From: Cohnella thermotolerans DSM 17683
GTDB taxonomy: Bacteria; Bacillota; Bacilli; Paenibacillales; Paenibacillaceae
NCBI RefSeq assembly: GCF_000429825.1
Contig: NZ_KE386957.1
Span: 8,186-72,185 of the forward strand
Length of the DNA stretch: 64,000 nucleotides
Direction: 5' to 3'
Shown here: piece by piece, positions 22,592 to 31,349 of the stretch
Layout of the letters: each line of letters starts with the position of its first letter
How positions within the stretch are numbered: position 1 is the first letter of the stretch
Notes under the pieces: model-generated
What the model was told of the DNA's origin: nothing
What the model saw: only the letters and a program-made list of their open reading frames with translations
Database searches by the model: none
Position numbers and translations under genes: made by a program

Positions 22592-23020
22592 TCACTTTCT
22601 TCGGTACTTTTTCACCTTTCTCTTTGGTTTTGGCTTCTTAAATAGAAACCGAATCGTTGAATCGATTAAACGTTCGAAGGGTATCTTTTCTATGATGAGA
22701 CCTAAGGCTTGATCTAACGATGGAGGCGACGACGTCTCTTTGTGCGTACGATCCCGCCCCGCTTTTTCCAGGTTCCGTATGCTCTCGAGTTCTTGCTGGA
22801 CGAACTGTCTCCACTCCGGGTCAGCTTCCGCAGCTGCCTCCGATATCTCCACCGATTTATTTTCTCCGATAGTAGTATTGTCTTCCCTAGCTGAAGGAAG
22901 ATAAGTATGATCTTTGCTTACTTCCTTCAATTCCTCCTCCTTGTTCAGATTGGAGTTCGGAAGCTCCGTGGAATCGGTTTGCCTGTGATCAGACTCAAGT
23001 TTACTTTGACTATAATCCAT
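22592..23020 (-). CDS. Hypothetical charged protein
   Basis: A 142-residue protein I do not recognise. Residues 1-70 are polar and probably disordered. About 70-100 is predicted helical (WRQFVQQELESIRNLEKAG). Residues 105-128 (DQALGLIIEKIPFERLIDSTIRFLF) form an amphipathic or weakly hydrophobic stretch, and the tail is strongly basic (KKPKPKRKVKKYRRK). This layout suits peripheral binding to membrane or nucleic acid. GGGAGGAG precedes the ATG. Divergent from the TPR-like gene at 23332 and ended by the tRNA-derived terminator. Confidence 0.6.
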   Translation of the reverse strand: MDYSQSKLESDHRQTDSTELPNSNLNKEEELKEVSKDHTYLPSAREDNTTIGENKSVEISEAAAEADPEWRQFVQQELESIRNLEKAGRDRTHKETSSPPSLDQALGLIIEKIPFERLIDSTIRFLFKKPKPKRKVKKYRRK

Positions 23021-23331: not shown

Positions 23332-23838
23332 ATGAAATTGAATACCAAGAACATGGGATTTGCAGACAAAATGCTATTTATTCTTGGATTAACATTAAGC
23401 GGTGTAATTGCTTTTGTTCTTGTGGTGGGCGTAATTGTTGCGGTGATTAAATTATATATGGACGACAAAATGCGTACTGTACAAGTTCATTCCGCCCCCA
23501 TGCTGGATGATGAGCAGGAGCCGGAGCTCATCGCTGCTCCGTTTGAGCAAAGACTGGCTGAGGCGGTTCGACATCATGAAGAAGCCGTAGCCGGAAATAG
23601 AGACGCCGTACGGGAAGCGAATCGTGTCATCGGACGATTGCGTCTGGATCATCCGGGCCACCCGATAGTGGACGCGTATCACGGAAGCGTGATGGTGCTG
23701 CTGGCAAGGACTATGCATGACCCGATGGAACGGCGAAAGTGGACGAGGCGCGGACTTAAGCTTCTCCATGAAGCTGCCGCTTCTTCTCCCCAAGATCGTA
23801 CGATCCGCATGCTTCGCGACACCATTGCATCCCGATAG
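23332..23838 (+). CDS. Membrane-anchored TPR-like protein (paralogue A)
   Basis: A 168-residue protein. One membrane segment near the N terminus (about 12-38, LFILGLTLSGVIAFVLVVGVIVAVI) precedes an acidic linker and a helical domain. The domain (EANRVIGRLRLDHPGHPIVDAYHGSVM..., RRGLKLLHEAAASSP) is plainly homologous to the gene at 29850 (EANQLLERLRLDYPDHPLAEAYHGSIM), and less so to that at 29302. The helix-turn-helix repeats look TPR-like. Start chosen at ATG 23332 with AGGGAG. The next gene, 35 bp on, is a small helical protein also paired with the paralogues downstream. Confidence 0.65.
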   Translation: MKLNTKNMGFADKMLFILGLTLSGVIAFVLVVGVIVAVIKLYMDDKMRTVQVHSAPMLDDEQEPELIAAPFEQRLAEAVRHHEEAVAGNRDAVREANRVIGRLRLDHPGHPIVDAYHGSVMVLLARTMHDPMERRKWTRRGLKLLHEAAASSPQDRTIRMLRDTIASR

Positions 23839-23873
23839 ACTGAACGCTTGGCTTTCATAAGGGGGTGAAGCAA

Positions 23874-24152
23874 ATGCCAGAGGGTAGTCAGGATCTCTCG
23901 AGGATTTTTCGCGAAATCAAGCGAGAATTCTTCCGTTTCGCCGACAGCTATGCAAAGGCTGTTAGTGGCGGTGCGAATGTGACCGGCAAGAAAATCATGG
24001 AGGCTGTAAAAAAATCGGATCAACCCTCCGATATTTCTATAGCGAAATTGATATCGACCGTTAAAAGCGGTGTACAATATGCCGGTGAACAAATGATAAA
24101 GTCTGGAGCGGATTTAGTCGAACAAATGAAAGAAAAAGCAAAAAAACAATAA
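23874..24152 (+). CDS. Small helical protein, family copy 1
   Basis: A 92-residue protein of unknown family. It is helical with a basic C terminus and the core FADSYAKAVSGGANVTGK, then QPSDISI and VKSGVQYAGEQM. The second copy at 31062 shares K(R/K)E, FAD, G-A-x-x-V-x-K, QPSD, KSG and AG-(E/Q). Glycines at the same places suggest a short helical bundle. GGGGG precedes ATG 23874. It forms a pair with the TPR-like gene upstream and ends in a terminator. No catalytic motif is visible. Confidence 0.65.
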   Translation: MPEGSQDLSRIFREIKREFFRFADSYAKAVSGGANVTGKKIMEAVKKSDQPSDISIAKLISTVKSGVQYAGEQMIKSGADLVEQMKEKAKKQ

Positions 24153-24209: not shown

Positions 24210-24250
24210 GGCTGACTCTTAGGGACAGCACCTTTTGAGTCAGCCTTTTC
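24210..24250 (+). terminator. Terminator after the small helical gene
   Basis: GGCTGACTC (24210-24218) pairs with GAGTCAGCC (24237-24245), followed by TTTTCC on the plus strand. It lies between convergent transcripts. Confidence 0.7.
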
Positions 24251-24285
24251 CACTACTCTTCTTACGGTTCGTTACTCTGTACTTC

Positions 24286-24456
24286 TTAATTCCCTTTCCG
24301 CGCTTGTTTCTCGAGGTGCTTCTGTTCTTTTGCTTTTGCTTTATCCGCTTTGTGAGTTTGTTTCTCGAGGTGCTTCTGTTCTTTGGCTTTTGTTTTTTCC
24401 GCTTTCTTTAATTGCTTTCTTGCTTGCTTCTGCTCTTTCGTTTCTTTGTCACTCAT
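24286..24456 (-). CDS. 56-residue Lys/Glu-rich repeat protein
   Basis: A short gene easily missed. ATG 24456 follows GGAGGG and overlaps the stop of the DUF98 gene by 8 bp, so it is translationally coupled. The product is almost only K, E, Q, A, T and H and contains KAKEQKHLEKQ twice at an 18-residue interval, predicting a single charged helix or coiled coil. No family is recognised. Last gene of the minus-strand aromatic operon. Confidence 0.7.
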   Translation of the reverse strand: MSDKETKEQKQARKQLKKAEKTKAKEQKHLEKQTHKADKAKAKEQKHLEKQARKGN

Positions 24457-25057
24457 GATTCATCCCTCCGATAGATTGGTTCAAACGTTGTCTGATGATA
24501 TTCGGATTAAAATATTCAAGCATCTGAATTCCCGGCGCAGGTCCGAAATAAATCGAGTATTTTTTATATGGCACTTTATCGCGCAGCTCCGGAAAACGAA
24601 GCCGGATCGGCTTTTGAAACAGATCCACCGCTTCTTCCTCATTTTTCGCCCCGGAGTCAAGCACTTTTCTGAACGTTTGCAAACCCAATGTGTTGATTGA
24701 TTTTCCTATCCCCTCCTTTCGGTGTGCTATCTTCTCAAACAAAGAAGGCGGCACATGCTTCGAGTAAACCAGCGCAAGATTGTGAGATACCAGAAAGCGG
24801 CTCTTTTCGATCATCAAGAGAGATTCTCTTATATAATACGGAGCACCGGAGAACTCGCTAAAAAGATCGGCATGTTCTTCATCTATTTGTTCTTGCCGAA
24901 TGACATGAACTACCATTTTTTCGTTCAACAGAGTTTCCAGCATCTCTGTTGTCCGTCCGTCCGTCACCAGTAACATTTTAAATATCAACCCATGCAATAA
25001 ATCAAACGCCCTTCCCGCATCATGCGAATCCATGTCGAAAGAGTTTATATCTGTCAT
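24449..25057 (-). CDS. Chorismate lyase-like (DUF98) protein
   Basis: A 202-residue cytoplasmic protein that reads as a UbiC/DUF98 family enzyme, which cleaves chorismate to 4-hydroxybenzoate and pyruvate (as mycobacterial Rv2949c). Seen: TDGRTTEMLETLLNEKMVVHVIRQ at the N terminus, YIRESLLMIEKSRFLVSHNLALV (Arg of the substrate pocket) and PPSLFEKIAHRKEGIGKSI (Gly-x-x-Ile turn), with a late Glu in QMLEYFNP. Start at ATG 25057 with GGAGGTG, while the longer frame is a shadow of the gene upstream. Operon position right after a DAHP synthase supports a chorismate-consuming role. The lyase assignment is from motif reading only. Confidence 0.6.
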   Translation of the reverse strand: MTDINSFDMDSHDAGRAFDLLHGLIFKMLLVTDGRTTEMLETLLNEKMVVHVIRQEQIDEEHADLFSEFSGAPYYIRESLLMIEKSRFLVSHNLALVYSKHVPPSLFEKIAHRKEGIGKSINTLGLQTFRKVLDSGAKNEEEAVDLFQKPIRLRFPELRDKVPYKKYSIYFGPAPGIQMLEYFNPNIIRQRLNQSIGGMNHE

Positions 25058-25103
25058 ACACTCACCTCCGTTAGCGAATGTCTGCCCGTGATGCTTCGTC
25101 ACT

Positions 25104-26168
25104 TTAGAAAAAACCCGAATCGCGGAGTCCCTTCCAGAACGTATGAAATTCGTCAATATTGATCTGCTGCTTCGCATCGGAACGTGCAGACTGCGGATTC
25201 GGATGCACCTCGACCATAACCCCATCGGCGCCCGCAGCAAGTACTGCCTTCGCGCAGGACAGCAGAATATCCTTTCGGCCGGTGGAATGGCTGACATCCA
25301 CGAGCACCGGAAGATGAGTCTCCTGTTTCAATAGCGGAACTGCCGAAATATCGAGCGTGTTTCTCGTCCATTTTTCGAAAGTGCGTATTCCGCGCTCGAT
25401 CAACATGACCCGGTCATTCCCGTTATACAGGATATATTCTGCCGCAAGAATGAACTCCTCCAATGTGGCGGAAAGGCCTCGCTTCAGAAGAATAGGCAGG
25501 CCGGTTTGGCCGACGGCTTTCAGCAGATCGAAGTTCTGCATGTTGCGGGCGCCGATCTGAAAGATATCGACATAACGGGCTGCCGTATCGATTTGTGAAG
25601 GGCTCATGATTTCGCTGATGGTCACCATGCCGACTTCGTCGGCCACTTCCTTCATGATTTTCAAACCTTCCACACCGAGCCCTTGAAAGTCGTATGGAGA
25701 GGTTCTCGGCTTGAACGCGCCCCCGCGCAAGACGGTAACACCGGCATTCTTCAACGCGGCCGCAACCGTCAGGAGCTGGTCTCTCGATTCGATTGAGCAG
25801 GGACCCGCGATCATGACGTGCGAGGCGCCTCCAAATTCGGCATGCTTGACCCGAATAATCGTATCCTCGCTCTTGTGGTGGCGGCTCACTAGGAGCTTTC
25901 GTTCATTTTTGGTATTTTTCTTCATTTTTGAACGAAAAATCTCCGTAAATAAGTACATGACCGTGTCGTTATCAATGGGTCCCGGATTATGACTGGTAAG
26001 CTCATTCACCATTTGCTGGACACCAATCGGATCCGCTTCCGATATCCCTTGTTTTTCCTTTATCCGAACAATTTCATCGGCCGTACGCGCCTGTTCATTC
26101 AGCAGATGAAGCAATTGTCGGTTTATCCCGTTCAATTGGAATTGTAATTGTTGCAATTGTTCACTCAT
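25104..26168 (-). CDS. aroA: Chorismate mutase-DAHP synthase (type I beta)
   Basis: A 354-residue bifunctional enzyme of the Bacillus AroA type. Residues 1-85 are an AroQ chorismate mutase domain (INRQLLHLLNEQARTADEIVRIK). From about 105 the DAHP synthase barrel carries IAGPCSIES, GGAFKPRTSPYDFQG, IGARNMQN and LPVLVDVSHSTGRKD with metal and PEP ligands. It commits PEP and erythrose 4-phosphate to the shikimate pathway, and the mutase domain usually confers feedback control. Its position inside an aromatic operon suggests a cluster-dedicated copy. Confidence 0.9.
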   Translation of the reverse strand: MSEQLQQLQFQLNGINRQLLHLLNEQARTADEIVRIKEKQGISEADPIGVQQMVNELTSHNPGPIDNDTVMYLFTEIFRSKMKKNTKNERKLLVSRHHKSEDTIIRVKHAEFGGASHVMIAGPCSIESRDQLLTVAAALKNAGVTVLRGGAFKPRTSPYDFQGLGVEGLKIMKEVADEVGMVTISEIMSPSQIDTAARYVDIFQIGARNMQNFDLLKAVGQTGLPILLKRGLSATLEEFILAAEYILYNGNDRVMLIERGIRTFEKWTRNTLDISAVPLLKQETHLPVLVDVSHSTGRKDILLSCAKAVLAAGADGVMVEVHPNPQSARSDAKQQINIDEFHTFWKGLRDSGFF

Positions 26169-26289: not shown

Positions 26290-27525
26290 TCAAATGAATT
26301 TATGAACATATACCGGCTTTGTCGACGGGACGTTCTTCACAAGCTCGACACGGTCAAGCAACCTGGAGTCCGCGACGATCTCTACGGTGACAGGCACATG
26401 CAGCTTCCCGGATAAATGAGAACGGACAACCTCCTCCGACCATTTCCCGGAATCATGCGAATCAAGAAGAAAGTGCAGCCCATTCTCCAGCTCCAGCGTC
26501 TTCCAGGAATCCGGAACAGGAGATAACGAATATACGGCTTCTTGTATATCCGCACCGTCCAGAACGATATCGCCATAACGAATTCGCTCTTTACTCCTGC
26601 CGTAATGTACGAGCTTGCCCCCCGTTCGGCCGCAAGCACACAAGGAAGGTTCGACAGAGATGATGTCTTCATTAAAGTATCGCAGCAGAGGAGATCCCTG
26701 ATGGGAAAGCGTTGAAATCGCTGCAAACCCCCTCTCTCCTTGAGCAACGGGACCTGAACCGTCTTCATGCAGCACTTCCACGAAAAAATCCTGTTCCGCG
26801 ATATGCATCGCGCCGTATTCGCACATCGTAGCGATATTAGCGGTTTCCGTCGAGCCATACATATTAAATACAGGCACGCCCCACAGCTTCTCTATATGCT
26901 CCCTACGCTTGTCGCTCATTAATTCTCCGGCAACGCATATGGCCCGTAATGCCGGAAAATTGTTGCTCGGAGTCGAACCGATCAGACGCGCTGTTTCGGC
27001 CAGGAGCTCAAACTCTCGCGGGAGCCCGGCGGCTACCGTGACACGAAGACGCTCCATGAGCTGCAGCACTCTTGGGTATGGCGTAATTACGGTGCGTCCG
27101 CTTGCAGGAACAATCCCTGCTCCCGACAGCCATGCCGCTTGCTGCATCAGGAACGCGGGCAATGACATCGCGTATGGATAGCGGATCAGCACAAAATCTT
27201 CGGCTGTCAACCGAACCCCGCATTCCTTCAGCTGTCTTCCGCCAGTCTTCAAGTCCTCTTGGGTGAACCAGGAGGAGGAAGGCTCTCCGGTCGTGCCGGT
27301 AGATTCGTGGTATTGCGCAATCTCTTTCATTTCGACGGCAAGGTGACCGAAAGCGCCGGCTTTCCGGAGATCTTCTTTTGTTGTAAGCGGCAGTGTTTGG
27401 ATGTGGTCTAATCCGATGCCATTCAGGTTATATTTCGATAATTTTTCCTTGTACAAAGGAGATTTTAGAATGCGTGCCAACAAATCCTTGAACTTTCGCT
27501 CCCGCTCCCGATCGTTGTCAGTCAT
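26290..27525 (-). CDS. PaaK-like adenylate-forming enzyme 2
   Basis: A 411-residue member of the phenylacetate-CoA ligase/F390 synthetase branch of AMP-forming ligases. The phosphate loop is ESTGTTGEPSS (about 75-85), NMYGSTETA is the aromatic/adenine motif, and the C-terminal small domain (about 310-411) is present. It probably activates an aromatic acid as acyl-AMP, with CoA or another acceptor. GAGGAGGTG precedes the ATG. It lies 36 bp after the first ligase gene. The two ligases share only modest similarity and presumably differ in substrate or acceptor. Confidence 0.8.
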   Translation of the reverse strand: MTDNDRERERKFKDLLARILKSPLYKEKLSKYNLNGIGLDHIQTLPLTTKEDLRKAGAFGHLAVEMKEIAQYHESTGTTGEPSSSWFTQEDLKTGGRQLKECGVRLTAEDFVLIRYPYAMSLPAFLMQQAAWLSGAGIVPASGRTVITPYPRVLQLMERLRVTVAAGLPREFELLAETARLIGSTPSNNFPALRAICVAGELMSDKRREHIEKLWGVPVFNMYGSTETANIATMCEYGAMHIAEQDFFVEVLHEDGSGPVAQGERGFAAISTLSHQGSPLLRYFNEDIISVEPSLCACGRTGGKLVHYGRSKERIRYGDIVLDGADIQEAVYSLSPVPDSWKTLELENGLHFLLDSHDSGKWSEEVVRSHLSGKLHVPVTVEIVADSRLLDRVELVKNVPSTKPVYVHKFI

Positions 27526-27561: not shown

Positions 27562-28905
27562 CTAATTGAACACTCGGGTCACTTTGCCGAAAGTACGGGG
27601 GATGTCGTGTCTGATTTCGACCTGGCAGTCAATCCCGATCCGATCAGCCATATGCTTTCGGATTTTCTCCGCCAATTGCTCGTCGCTTAATTTCGTCCGG
27701 AACGGCTCGGCTTCGATCTTCAGAACTCCGTTATTCAGCTTGAAATAATACCACATGCCCACATCGGGAATTTCCATAAGGAAGTGTTCCAACAAGAACG
27801 GGGAATAATCCTCACCATTCAATTGCAGCATATTTTCCTTTCTGCCTCTCAGCTGCAAAACGTCCATGGTGTTCCCGCAAACGCATCTGGCCTTTTGCAA
27901 ATAACCGATATCCCCGGTTCTGTAACGCACCATCGGCATTCCTTCGCGCAGCAGCGTCGTTACGATGATCTCTCCGGTTTTGCCGTACGGAAGCGGCTTC
28001 TCCGAAACAGGATCAATAATTTCTACCTTTACATGTCCTTCCATGACGTGATACCCTTTGTGTTCGCTGCATTCAACACCAACACCCCCGCACTCTGTCG
28101 AGCCGTAGAAGAATGACACTTCGCAGCCCCACCATTTCTCCAGCCGGTCGCGGAAGGTAGAGGAGCACCCTTCGCCGGTAAGCCAAATCTTCTTAAGTCG
28201 GATATCTTCACCTATTTTGATACTATACTTCTCGCTTTCTTCCACCAAAAGCGCTGCATAGGAAGGAGTGGTAGCGAGTACCGTGGCTTGGTATTCCTTC
28301 ATCAGCTCCAATGACTTATCGACGGGAGCCATGTATCCGCCTTTGCCGAGCGACAGCACCGCCGTTCCGAACGCAAACTGGAACAAACGTTGAAAACCGA
28401 GACCGGGTAGTGCAAACTCATACGGCAGCGCAATGGCCGCAACATCCTCGTCCGACTCCTTGAATATTTCCGAATATTTGGGCAGCAAATCGTATATATA
28501 CTGATCAGCTAACGTGTAGGCGGTATAAATCGGCTTCCCCGAAGTTCCGCTTGTAAGGTGAACCTGACCGATTTCTTTCGGATCGACGCATAAGACCTTC
28601 TGCTTATCTCCTCGTATAACGTCTTTCTTGAGCAGCGGTACTGAAGCTAATTGCTCCAGGCTTTCGATTTTCGGTTCCGTGAAGCCCGCTTCTTCCAGCT
28701 TCGAACGGTAATATTCGTTGTTGTTCCAGACATGAGCAAGCGTAGCGTTAATGGCTTTCACCTGATAGTCTTCAATTCTTTGCCGAGGTAGCTTTTCAAT
28801 GGTTATTCCTTCTTCGTCCAATTGCTTAAAAAAATCCTTGAATTGTTCCAGATGGGACGAATGCTGGTCAATGGAAACCATCATCTTATGGGATTGCAAT
28901 TTCAT
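27562..28905 (-). CDS. PaaK-like adenylate-forming enzyme 1
   Basis: A 447-residue phenylacetate-CoA-ligase-like enzyme. It has phosphate loop HLTSGTSGKPIYTA, adenine/aromatic motif FFYGSTECGGVG, TGEIIVTTL and the hinge YRTGDIGYL, then a C-terminal small domain ending at KVTRVFN. Family members make aryl-CoA via aryl-AMP. ATG 28905 with AGGAGG is preferred over the in-frame start at 28926. It leads the operon of two ligases, DAHP synthase and the DUF98 protein, so 4-hydroxybenzoate is a natural substrate guess. Confidence 0.8.
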   Translation of the reverse strand: MKLQSHKMMVSIDQHSSHLEQFKDFFKQLDEEGITIEKLPRQRIEDYQVKAINATLAHVWNNNEYYRSKLEEAGFTEPKIESLEQLASVPLLKKDVIRGDKQKVLCVDPKEIGQVHLTSGTSGKPIYTAYTLADQYIYDLLPKYSEIFKESDEDVAAIALPYEFALPGLGFQRLFQFAFGTAVLSLGKGGYMAPVDKSLELMKEYQATVLATTPSYAALLVEESEKYSIKIGEDIRLKKIWLTGEGCSSTFRDRLEKWWGCEVSFFYGSTECGGVGVECSEHKGYHVMEGHVKVEIIDPVSEKPLPYGKTGEIIVTTLLREGMPMVRYRTGDIGYLQKARCVCGNTMDVLQLRGRKENMLQLNGEDYSPFLLEHFLMEIPDVGMWYYFKLNNGVLKIEAEPFRTKLSDEQLAEKIRKHMADRIGIDCQVEIRHDIPRTFGKVTRVFN

Positions 28906-28915
28906 AAAAAACCTC

Positions 28916-29047
28916 CTAAGAAGCAATGGCCGATTCTTTTATGGTAAAGTGTGACAAACTTACTACAATAACCATGTGCACGATTAAGTGAAATGAACGC
29001 CGTAACGGATTCCCGCATCGATGCCACGTTATTTTTCTTTCCGACAA
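28916..29047 (-). CDS. Possible 43-residue leader ORF
   Basis: A TTG start at 29047 has a very strong GGAGGAGGG site. The short product has one hydrophobic stretch (FHLIVHMVIVVSLSHFTI) and stops 11 bp before the first ligase start. It could be a small membrane peptide or translational leader. No homologue is recognised. Confidence 0.35.
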   Translation of the reverse strand: MSERKITWHRCGNPLRRSFHLIVHMVIVVSLSHFTIKESAIAS

Positions 29048-29301
29048 GTTCTGCCCTCCTCCGTAATTACTGTTATGAAATGCACGACTGTAAAGAATTG
29101 ACTCGGACAAACGTACATTTTTAATAAATGAGTATTTCATCCAACCTCTATATGAGGATCGCACATATCGTAACAAGTAAGCTGGAAATGCAAGGAGGGG
29201 ATTTATCTGCGTTGCTTTTACGTATTGGAAAAGGACCAAGATTTTCAATATCTCAATATACCAGGTTTTCCGCCGGATTTATCATTGGGAGGGCGATAGG
29301 A
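29048..29301. other. Divergent promoter region of the aromatic operon
   Basis: AT-rich segment between the minus-strand ligase operon and the plus-strand TPR-like pair. Both promoters should be here. I cannot place convincing -35/-10 pairs. Confidence 0.3.
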
Positions 29302-29853
29302 ATGGCAGATCAAAGCGTCCATATGAAACAATTCGAGGAAGCCAAAACACTCCATAATCATGGGGTGAACGGAGACAAAAAAGCGGTGATAAAAGCAAAC
29401 GAGATGCTCTTAAAGATTCGTGAGTCCGAGCCTGATAATGCACTAATTGAAGCCTATTACGGCAGTACTCTCGTTCTATTAGGCCGGGATGCCGTTAAAA
29501 TTCTGGAAAAAGCGGATAAGGCGCAGGAGGGATTAGACGCATTGAATCAGGCCGTTTCTTTAGACTCAAACCATAAAGAAATTCGGTTGTTACGCGGTAA
29601 CATTTGTGTGAGGCTGCCAGAATCCTTTTTCCATTGCTCGGAAACGGCAATCGAGGACTTCACCTTCCTGCTTGACCACTATAAAGAGAATTCCAGCTAC
29701 CTTACTCAAAAGCAAGTACGCGAAGTACTGCGAAACCTAAGTTTAGCTTACCAAAATGTAGGAAAACCTGACAAAGCAGATGCAGTCTTGCAGCGTCTCG
29801 TTCAATTGGAACGGAAGAAAAATCATAAGAAAAGAGAGGGAGTAGACCATTGA
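29302..29853 (+). CDS. TPR-like protein (paralogue B)
   Basis: A 183-residue soluble helical protein. The N-terminal part (KQFEEAKTLHNHGVNGDKKAVIKANEMLLKIRESEPDNALIEAYYGSTLVLLGRD) corresponds to the repeat region of the 23332 and 29850 products. The C-terminal half adds SSYLTQKQVREVLRNLSLAYQNVGKPDKADAVLQRLV, a classical TPR pair. Start at ATG 29302 with GGAGGG; the frame opens earlier (29128) without a ribosome site. Its stop overlaps the start of the next paralogue, so the two are coupled. Function unknown, probably a scaffold. Confidence 0.65.
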   Translation: MADQSVHMKQFEEAKTLHNHGVNGDKKAVIKANEMLLKIRESEPDNALIEAYYGSTLVLLGRDAVKILEKADKAQEGLDALNQAVSLDSNHKEIRLLRGNICVRLPESFFHCSETAIEDFTFLLDHYKENSSYLTQKQVREVLRNLSLAYQNVGKPDKADAVLQRLVQLERKKNHKKREGVDH

Positions 29854-30728
29854 CATTCGATGAGAGACTCGACAAGATTAAATCGCTGTATAAGGAGGGC
29901 GCGAAAGACAATGTAACCGCCGTTCAGGAAGCGAATCAGCTGTTAGAACGGTTGCGACTCGATTATCCGGATCACCCTCTTGCGGAAGCTTACCATGGCA
30001 GCATCATGCTTTTAATCGCTCGGGATAAAACGAACTCGCTCGATAGGTTAAGATGGGCGAAAAACGGCTTAAAGCTTCTCGACAAAGCGGTAGCAGCCGC
30101 TCCGCACGACAGCAGGATCCGATATCTTCGCGGCAGGTCCGTATACAGGCTGCCAGAGAAGTATTTCCAACGGACGCAGACGGTGATTGAAGATTATACC
30201 TTCGTGATCGATCAGGAGTTCCTTCAAGAGGGCCAACTTGAGAACATTAACTACTCGAAACTAACCTATGAGCTCGGCGAGGCGTATCGCAGAATCGGTC
30301 GGAACGACGATGCGGCCAGATGCTGGACAAAGCTGGAGCAGCAAACGCAGGATCCGGAATTCAGGCAGCTTCTCAGGCAAAAGCTGCAATCCTTGGAAGG
30401 CAAACCTGCGATTGAACACATCCAAGCCAACGAAAGCATGAAATCGATCTTGATAGGAAGAGCCGCTCGCGCCGTCGGCAATGTACTCCTCAAATGGGTG
30501 GAAGAGGAGGAGGAAAAAGAAGCTCGAGGTAAGCGTCACGAAGAAGAGATGAAAAAAGAAACTCGCCGTAAGCGTTACGAAGAGGAGATGAAAAAAGAAA
30601 CTCGCCGTAAGCGTCACGATGAGGAGATGAAAAAAGAAACTCGCCGTAAGCGTCACGATGAGGAGATGAAAAAGAAACGCGCCGTAAGTCGAAATCGCAT
30701 ATTGAAAAGACGCCCTAAGTCAATATAA
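29850..30728 (+). CDS. TPR-like protein with Lys/Glu repeat tail (paralogue C)
   Basis: A 292-residue protein starting at TTG 29850 (GAGGGAG eight bases ahead), overlapping the previous stop. Residues 1-195 are TPR-like, with EANQLLERLRLDYPDHPLAEAYHGSIM and the repeat KLTYELGEAYRRIGRNDDAARCWTKLEQQ. From about 228 the chain becomes a charged helix made of four 13-residue repeats (KRHDEEMKKETRR), reminiscent of the KEQKHLEKQ protein at 24286. It is likely an extended coiled coil. No enzyme motif is seen. It pairs in context with the small helical protein at 31062. Confidence 0.65.
   Translation: MTFDERLDKIKSLYKEGAKDNVTAVQEANQLLERLRLDYPDHPLAEAYHGSIMLLIARDKTNSLDRLRWAKNGLKLLDKAVAAAPHDSRIRYLRGRSVYRLPEKYFQRTQTVIEDYTFVIDQEFLQEGQLENINYSKLTYELGEAYRRIGRNDDAARCWTKLEQQTQDPEFRQLLRQKLQSLEGKPAIEHIQANESMKSILIGRAARAVGNVLLKWVEEEEEKEARGKRHEEEMKKETRRKRYEEEMKKETRRKRHDEEMKKETRRKRHDEEMKKKRAVSRNRILKRRPKSI
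30531..30686 (+). repeat. Four tandem 39-bp coding repeats
   Basis: Units start at 30531, 30570, 30609 and 30648. Units 2-4 are nearly identical and unit 4 decays at its end. The period is a multiple of three, so copy number can change without breaking the frame. Confidence 0.85.
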
Positions 30729-31061
30729 TTGTTGAAAATCTTTTGTGGAAAAGACAACACGAAACCAAGGGGTGCAAGAAGTCGGTTATCACACCCCCTC
30801 TTCATTCGGTCCAGAATGTACCCGCAGCTTAGCCTGAAGGAAGATTGCCGGGTCATAGCAAGTACGCTTTCGCCAAATGGCAACCCTAACGATCGTCAAA
30901 CCGGTAGAAGAATCTTTTCGGGGGATTGGTCTTTCCAAGCAATGATGGTTCATCTCGCTAGGAGGTGAGGAATCTCCCCGAAAAACATGACTTCCCCTTA
31001 GGGTAGCCGAGGCTTTATGCCTTGTCTATAAACCATATTAATCTACGAGGAGGTGAGGCAC
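30729..31061. other. Intergenic leader before the second small helical gene
   Basis: Contains a weak hairpin (GGGGTG 30770-30775 with CACCCC 30793-30798) after the TPR gene and then about 260 bp with several G- and C-rich blocks (for example GCTAGGAGGTGAGG near 30958 and CCCCTTAGGG near 30995). It may be a structured leader, but I cannot match a known riboswitch class. Confidence 0.3.
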
Positions 31062-31349
31062 ATGTCAGATCACATAAAAAAGGTCTTCAAGGGAGTAAAG
31101 AAAGAGATCCTATATTTCGCCGATGTTGCTTTGAAAAGCGGCGCTACCAACGTCGGCAAAGAACTTGCGAATGTGACGCGCGATGTAAATCAACCGTCCG
31201 ATTTAAATTTAGGAACGATCGCCAATTCCTTGAAGAGCGGTATAATGGCGGCTGGCCAAGAATTAATGAGGGTTGGACTGGAGCGCGTGAATGCACTCTC
31301 CCCAACGGATCAGAAATCGAAAATGTCCGAGGAATCCACGTGGACATAA
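31062..31349 (+). CDS. Small helical protein, family copy 2
   Basis: A 95-residue paralogue of the product at 23874: KKEILYFADVALKSGATNVGKE, then NQPSDLNL and LKSGIMAAGQELM, with glycines and QPSD aligned. The C terminus (SPTDQKSKMSEESTWT) is acidic-polar instead of basic. GGAGGTGAGG precedes ATG 31062. It lies downstream of the two TPR-like genes, repeating the TPR-then-small-protein order of copy 1. Unknown function. Confidence 0.65.
   Translation: MSDHIKKVFKGVKKEILYFADVALKSGATNVGKELANVTRDVNQPSDLNLGTIANSLKSGIMAAGQELMRVGLERVNALSPTDQKSKMSEESTWT

Follow-up and report, generated by a model that had tools for sequence, protein, structure and literature searches.

A conserved short Lys/Glu-rich gene behind DUF98 in a putative aromatic-acid cluster of spore-forming Bacilli

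The described systems closest to a 56-codon open reading frame (the small ORF) in Cohnella thermotolerans DSM 17683 and its neighbours are single alpha-helix (ER/K) domains, LEA group 3 proteins and hydrophilins, lysine-rich coat proteins and CotS-family coat clusters, the Rv2949c/UbiC chorismate lyase operons, and the bagremycin/ferroverdin (BagE/FevW) synthetases. The small ORF lies in a 64,000-nucleotide stretch of contig NZ_KE386957.1, hereafter the window. Like ER/K domains, its product is charged, K/E-rich and predicted to form one long straight helix; it differs in having more Lys than Glu, and in an Ala/Leu face with a significant 3.6-residue moment. Opposite charges at i,i+3/i+4 are not enriched in it (score -10 against a shuffle mean of -3.1, P = 0.93). 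An ER/K-type single alpha-helix was therefore rejected: the lone helix is predicted, but the salt-bridge pattern is missing. With LEA group 3 proteins and hydrophilins the peptide shares hydrophilicity, a K/E/A/Q-rich composition, short repeats and few large hydrophobics, but it differs in its 18-residue unit, its fixed place in an enzyme operon, and the lack of a LEA match in Pfam (none of 16 family members matches any family at E <= 0.1, LEA models included). The likeness to coat clusters lies in the basic repeats and tails of the surrounding genes and in a CotS fusion at a related locus, L061, whereas the peptide itself has no match in NCBIfam or Pfam, coat families included. Finally, the Rv2949c/UbiC operons and BagE/FevW synthetases resemble the neighbouring DUF98 and AMP1 genes; however, all matches of these two genes fall below curated cut-offs, and the NCBIfam and Pfam descriptions that we found do not include the cluster's TPR, TM and small helical partners.

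Gene structure and neighbourhood

The sequence-only reading named no strand for 24286-24456; frame 1 of the plus strand is interrupted by a stop, and the small ORF lies on the minus strand, where it runs for 56 codons from an ATG and encodes MSDKETKEQKQARKQLKKAEKTKAKEQKHLEKQTHKADKAKAKEQKHLEKQARKGN. The ATG sits in ATGAGTGA, 8 nt of which are shared with the stop of DUF98, and the segment GGAGGGATGAATCATGAGTGA (24469..24449) comprises the Shine-Dalgarno (SD) sequence, a 7-nt spacer and this overlap. The ribosome site and 8-bp overlap described in the sequence-only reading were thus both recovered. In coupled genes the start runs into or adjoins the stop of the preceding gene, which also contains the SD; judged by this architecture, the small ORF is translationally coupled to DUF98, and we class its product with the small coupled accessory proteins. 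The proposed internal KAKEQKHLEKQ duplication also held, being encoded by a 54-nt direct tandem repeat (24285-24338 and 24339-24392, 85% identity). The protein consists of three 18-residue units, the third one shortened, and its self-identity is maximal at lag 18 (21/33).

In the common order of the cluster, phasB-TPRc-TPRb diverge from AMP2-AMP1-AroF-DUF98-(small ORF), which converges with phasA and a TM protein (Table 1). The DUF98 neighbour matches PF01947 with 20.4 bits (E = 0.00052), just under the 22-bit gathering cut-off. The structure model of phasA is poor (pLDDT 68). The inverted repeat between the convergent phasA and small ORF is likely to be a shared terminator.

A pattern search found the conserved block between TPRb and AMP2 in 22 related loci, and a genome-wide regulon search found one copy in the window's own genome, that of the cluster. 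Sigma-K promoters carry a -10 box like CATANNNTA, and this -10-like element, facing TPRb, is retained in nearly all block-bearing loci. A canonical sigma-K -35 was not found in the block at the usual spacing from CATANNNTA, and the -10 on the AMP2-operon side is imperfect. SpoIVA is present in 8/8 host genomes tested, which is weak evidence because the gene is general in these families. A gene at L061 (5077-7254, minus strand) encodes a CotS-family first part (TIGR02906, 1.2e-63) followed by a WRQFIQQEL motif resembling that of g142, together with a long, charged tail; the fusion was seen at a single locus, and the motif in common is short. At L080, YheC/D ATP-grasp genes lie nearby. These sequence features support, but do not prove, a spore-surface role for the cluster.

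Table 1. Features of the cluster in the window (window positions; a point marks features given without strand)
Feature	Position	Strand	Basis or remark
g142, EWRQFVQQEL motif protein with K/R-rich tail	22592..23020	-	motif fused to CotS domain in L061
TPRa, one-TM protein with TPR-like extension	23332..23838	+	
phasA, small helical protein, convergent to small ORF (name coined in this analysis)	23865..24152	+	
Inverted repeat, 9-bp stem ends, between phasA and small ORF	24210..24245	.	
Small ORF, 56-aa K/E/Q-rich protein, last gene of the operon	24286..24456	-	conservation, substitution tests, AlphaFold model
Shine-Dalgarno GGAGGG of small ORF, within the DUF98 gene end	24464..24469	-	sequence read; also at L033, L056-L058, L070, L076, L079 and others
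DUF98/Rv2949c-like chorismate pyruvate-lyase homologue (203 aa), its stop sharing 8 nt with the start of the small ORF	24449..25060	-	PF01947
AroF, fused chorismate mutase/DAHP synthase	25104..26168	-	PF00793, PF01817, NF009239
AMP1, adenylate-forming ligase of PaaK type; in NCBIfam closest to BagE/FevW (below cut-off)	26290..27525	-	
AMP2, second PaaK-like adenylate-forming ligase, ATG at 28905	27562..28905	-	
APS kinase gene remnant	28917..29047	-	intact at same place in L071, L076
Conserved promoter/regulatory block, divergent: minus strand TGTCCGAGTCAA..GCATTTCATA; plus strand CATATCGTA (sigma-K-like -10)	29070..29174	.	pattern
TPRb, TPR protein, likely start MADQ	29302..29853	+	
TPRc, TPR protein, K/E/R-rich C-terminal repeat tail	29850..30728	+	
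phasB, small helical protein, phasA paralogue (name coined in this analysis)	31053..31349	+	

Conservation, selection and distribution

DUF98 homologues were collected from family, order and genome collections, and the wider cluster regions were then extracted. A K/E/Q-rich ORF of 34-108 aa directly follows DUF98 in 16/35 related clusters. Most of these 16 start 8 nt inside the DUF98 stop or a few nt beyond it; nearly all have an SD site, usually the same one as in the window. Their alignment shows a conserved MS(D/E)E start and KEQxxLEK motifs, and length differs between relatives with the frame preserved. In several pairs, synonymous differences are more frequent than replacements (for L045/L046, pS 0.309 and pN 0.034). 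Because third-position transitions in K and E codons are silent, the substitution test was rerun with a transition-aware neutral model, built from the observed transition/transversion counts, and replacement changes were compared with its expectation. Amino-acid changes were far below neutral expectation in L045/L046 (P = 0.0003) and L006/L044 (P = 0.0007), and a deficit was also found in L005/L006 (P = 0.0037) and L005/L008 (P = 0.009). The signal was weaker among the window's near relatives (window/L032, P = 0.014; window/L003, P = 0.02), borderline in L006/L007 and L003/L032, and not significant in window/L020 (P = 0.66); with repeat proteins, the outcome of such pairwise tests depends on the alignment. 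Frame conservation and synonymous bias, the check proposed along with the original claim that a genuine short gene is coupled to DUF98, thus bear that claim out, and the outcome named as refuting it, loss of the frame in homologous operons, did not occur: as judged from 16 genomes, from in-frame length variation and from the substitution pattern, the small ORF is a real gene under purifying selection.

About half of the clusters have no small ORF behind DUF98. On the DUF98 tree its presence and absence require 4 changes, clustered well beyond shuffles. Four loci with none after DUF98 (L073, L084, L078 and L093) have a different but similar K/E-rich small ORF that opens the operon instead, between the conserved promoter block and AMP2. 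In 636 kb of locus sequence, 20/24 K/E-rich ORFs lie at either operon end (after DUF98 or as first gene), a count that is descriptive only because the loci were selected for the cluster. Given its in-frame length variation and occasional absence, we conclude that the small ORF is useful but dispensable. A search of a plasmid collection for an annotated copy returned only a distant DUF98 in Embleya, and a keyword search of open-licence papers found no published description of the cluster. The data point to an aromatic-acid cluster conserved among spore-forming Bacilli, in which a small K/E-rich gene recurs at one or the other end of the operon. They also illustrate that low-complexity short ORFs, which are poorly served by annotation and homology searches, can be validated through position, ribosome site and substitution pattern.

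Predicted helix and possible roles

AlphaFold models the small ORF protein as a single helix (residues 3-55, pLDDT 92.8); a Foldseek search of the PDB with this model gave no match, a single helix being an uninformative query. In 10/11 members the helical hydrophobic moment is maximal at 96-101 degrees, which corresponds to about 3.6 residues per turn, and in 9/11 its value at 100 degrees exceeds shuffles (P <= 0.004). At the heptad angle of 102.9 degrees the window protein also reaches P = 0.004, yet more weakly than its 100-degree signal, and the heptad (3.5-residue) period is not significant in the other ten of the 11 members tested. Large hydrophobics make up only 5% of the window protein. 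The TPRc tails have periods of 12/14 in the window and of 4 and 8 in several relatives; period analysis detected in them neither a heptad signal nor the period of the small ORF. At L058 (3634-4359) the TPRc tail seems to have lost its frame and to continue into the phasB ORF, by frameshift or assembly error.

These measurements bear on the earlier suggestion that the peptide forms a coiled coil with the TPR protein at 29850. The resemblance to the TPR tail stands as regards Lys/Glu composition, and fails as regards a common period. Pairing with the TPRc tail would fit two charged, K/E-rich sequences that co-occur within the same clusters. However, the 3.6-residue moment, with no heptad in the tails or in most members, leaves coiled-coil pairing unsupported, and the pairing was rejected on periodicity. 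Differing repeat lengths and few bulky hydrophobics also speak against it, and we regard it as very unlikely. Rather than a partner in a coiled coil, the product is probably a small, charged, helical protein with a helper or coat function.

Our preferred reading, to which we give a probability of roughly 0.35, is that the small ORF encodes an accessory charged helical protein of a cluster for aromatic modification of the spore surface. The product is small, built of in-frame repeat units, very hydrophilic, mostly basic and predicted to be alpha-helical; it would serve as an optional accessory subunit of a cluster conserved in spore-forming Bacilli. AroF and DUF98 are predicted to draw on chorismate, AMP1 and AMP2 to activate an aromatic acid, and the cluster as a whole to function inside the mother cell, at the surface of the spore. 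There the peptide may act as a charged filler or scaffold that keeps cluster proteins or the aromatic product on an anionic surface; alternatively, its lysines may be offered for acylation. The stop/start overlap would tie its amount to that of DUF98. Against the preferred reading, the gene is absent from many clusters, and a sequence of such low complexity could have arisen independently in different clusters. A more specific version, which we consider quite unlikely, is a mother-cell system that produces an aromatic acid from chorismate, activates it and attaches it to the spore surface; the lysine-rich small protein, or else the charged tails, would then be the acyl acceptor or the scaffold.

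The main rival to a spore-surface accessory is a plain enzyme-associated helper: in vegetative cells, and with no link to spores, the peptide would stabilise DUF98 or the ligases as a small cofactor or chaperone. Direct coupling to DUF98 and a location that is always at an end of the AMP2-DUF98 operon speak for such a helper. On the other hand, the DUF98 end is not exclusive, as the four loci with a first-gene copy show, many DUF98 clusters lack the small ORF, and the SpoIVA hosts and CotS fusion suggest a connection of the cluster to spores; we judge this helper possible, if somewhat unlikely. The peptide could instead be a LEA-like protectant or hydrophilin, shielding proteins or membranes in desiccation or sporulation, as its high hydrophilicity, K/E/Q/A composition, 18-residue (11+7) repeats and 3.6-residue amphipathic period might suggest, but the lack of a Pfam match in all 16 members and the confinement of the gene to one enzyme cluster make this improbable. 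That the frame is a low-complexity, purine-rich stretch open by chance is hardly credible: it is indeed short and of low complexity, and selection is weakly marked among the nearest relatives (L001/L020), but frame and start are kept in 16 genomes, nearly all with an SD, and selection is detected in more distant pairs.

Variation among the clusters

The cluster is spread over Paenibacillus relatives and three genomes from other families. In one of the latter (L093) it is again flanked by MtnK and alpha/beta-hydrolase genes, with 89% and 87% identity, and horizontal transfer is suggested as its origin there. At the operon head, L071 has an intact copy with an APS_kinase domain in place of the window's degraded gene. 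The AMP1 proteins of L061, L063, L067, L071 and L073 carry an extra C-terminal TPR domain of about 180 aa that is missing from the window copy, and in L061 and L073 a third adenylating enzyme lies between AMP1 and DUF98. The TPR-like stretch of TPRa is fused in the window and some near relatives; in most relatives the TM part stands alone.
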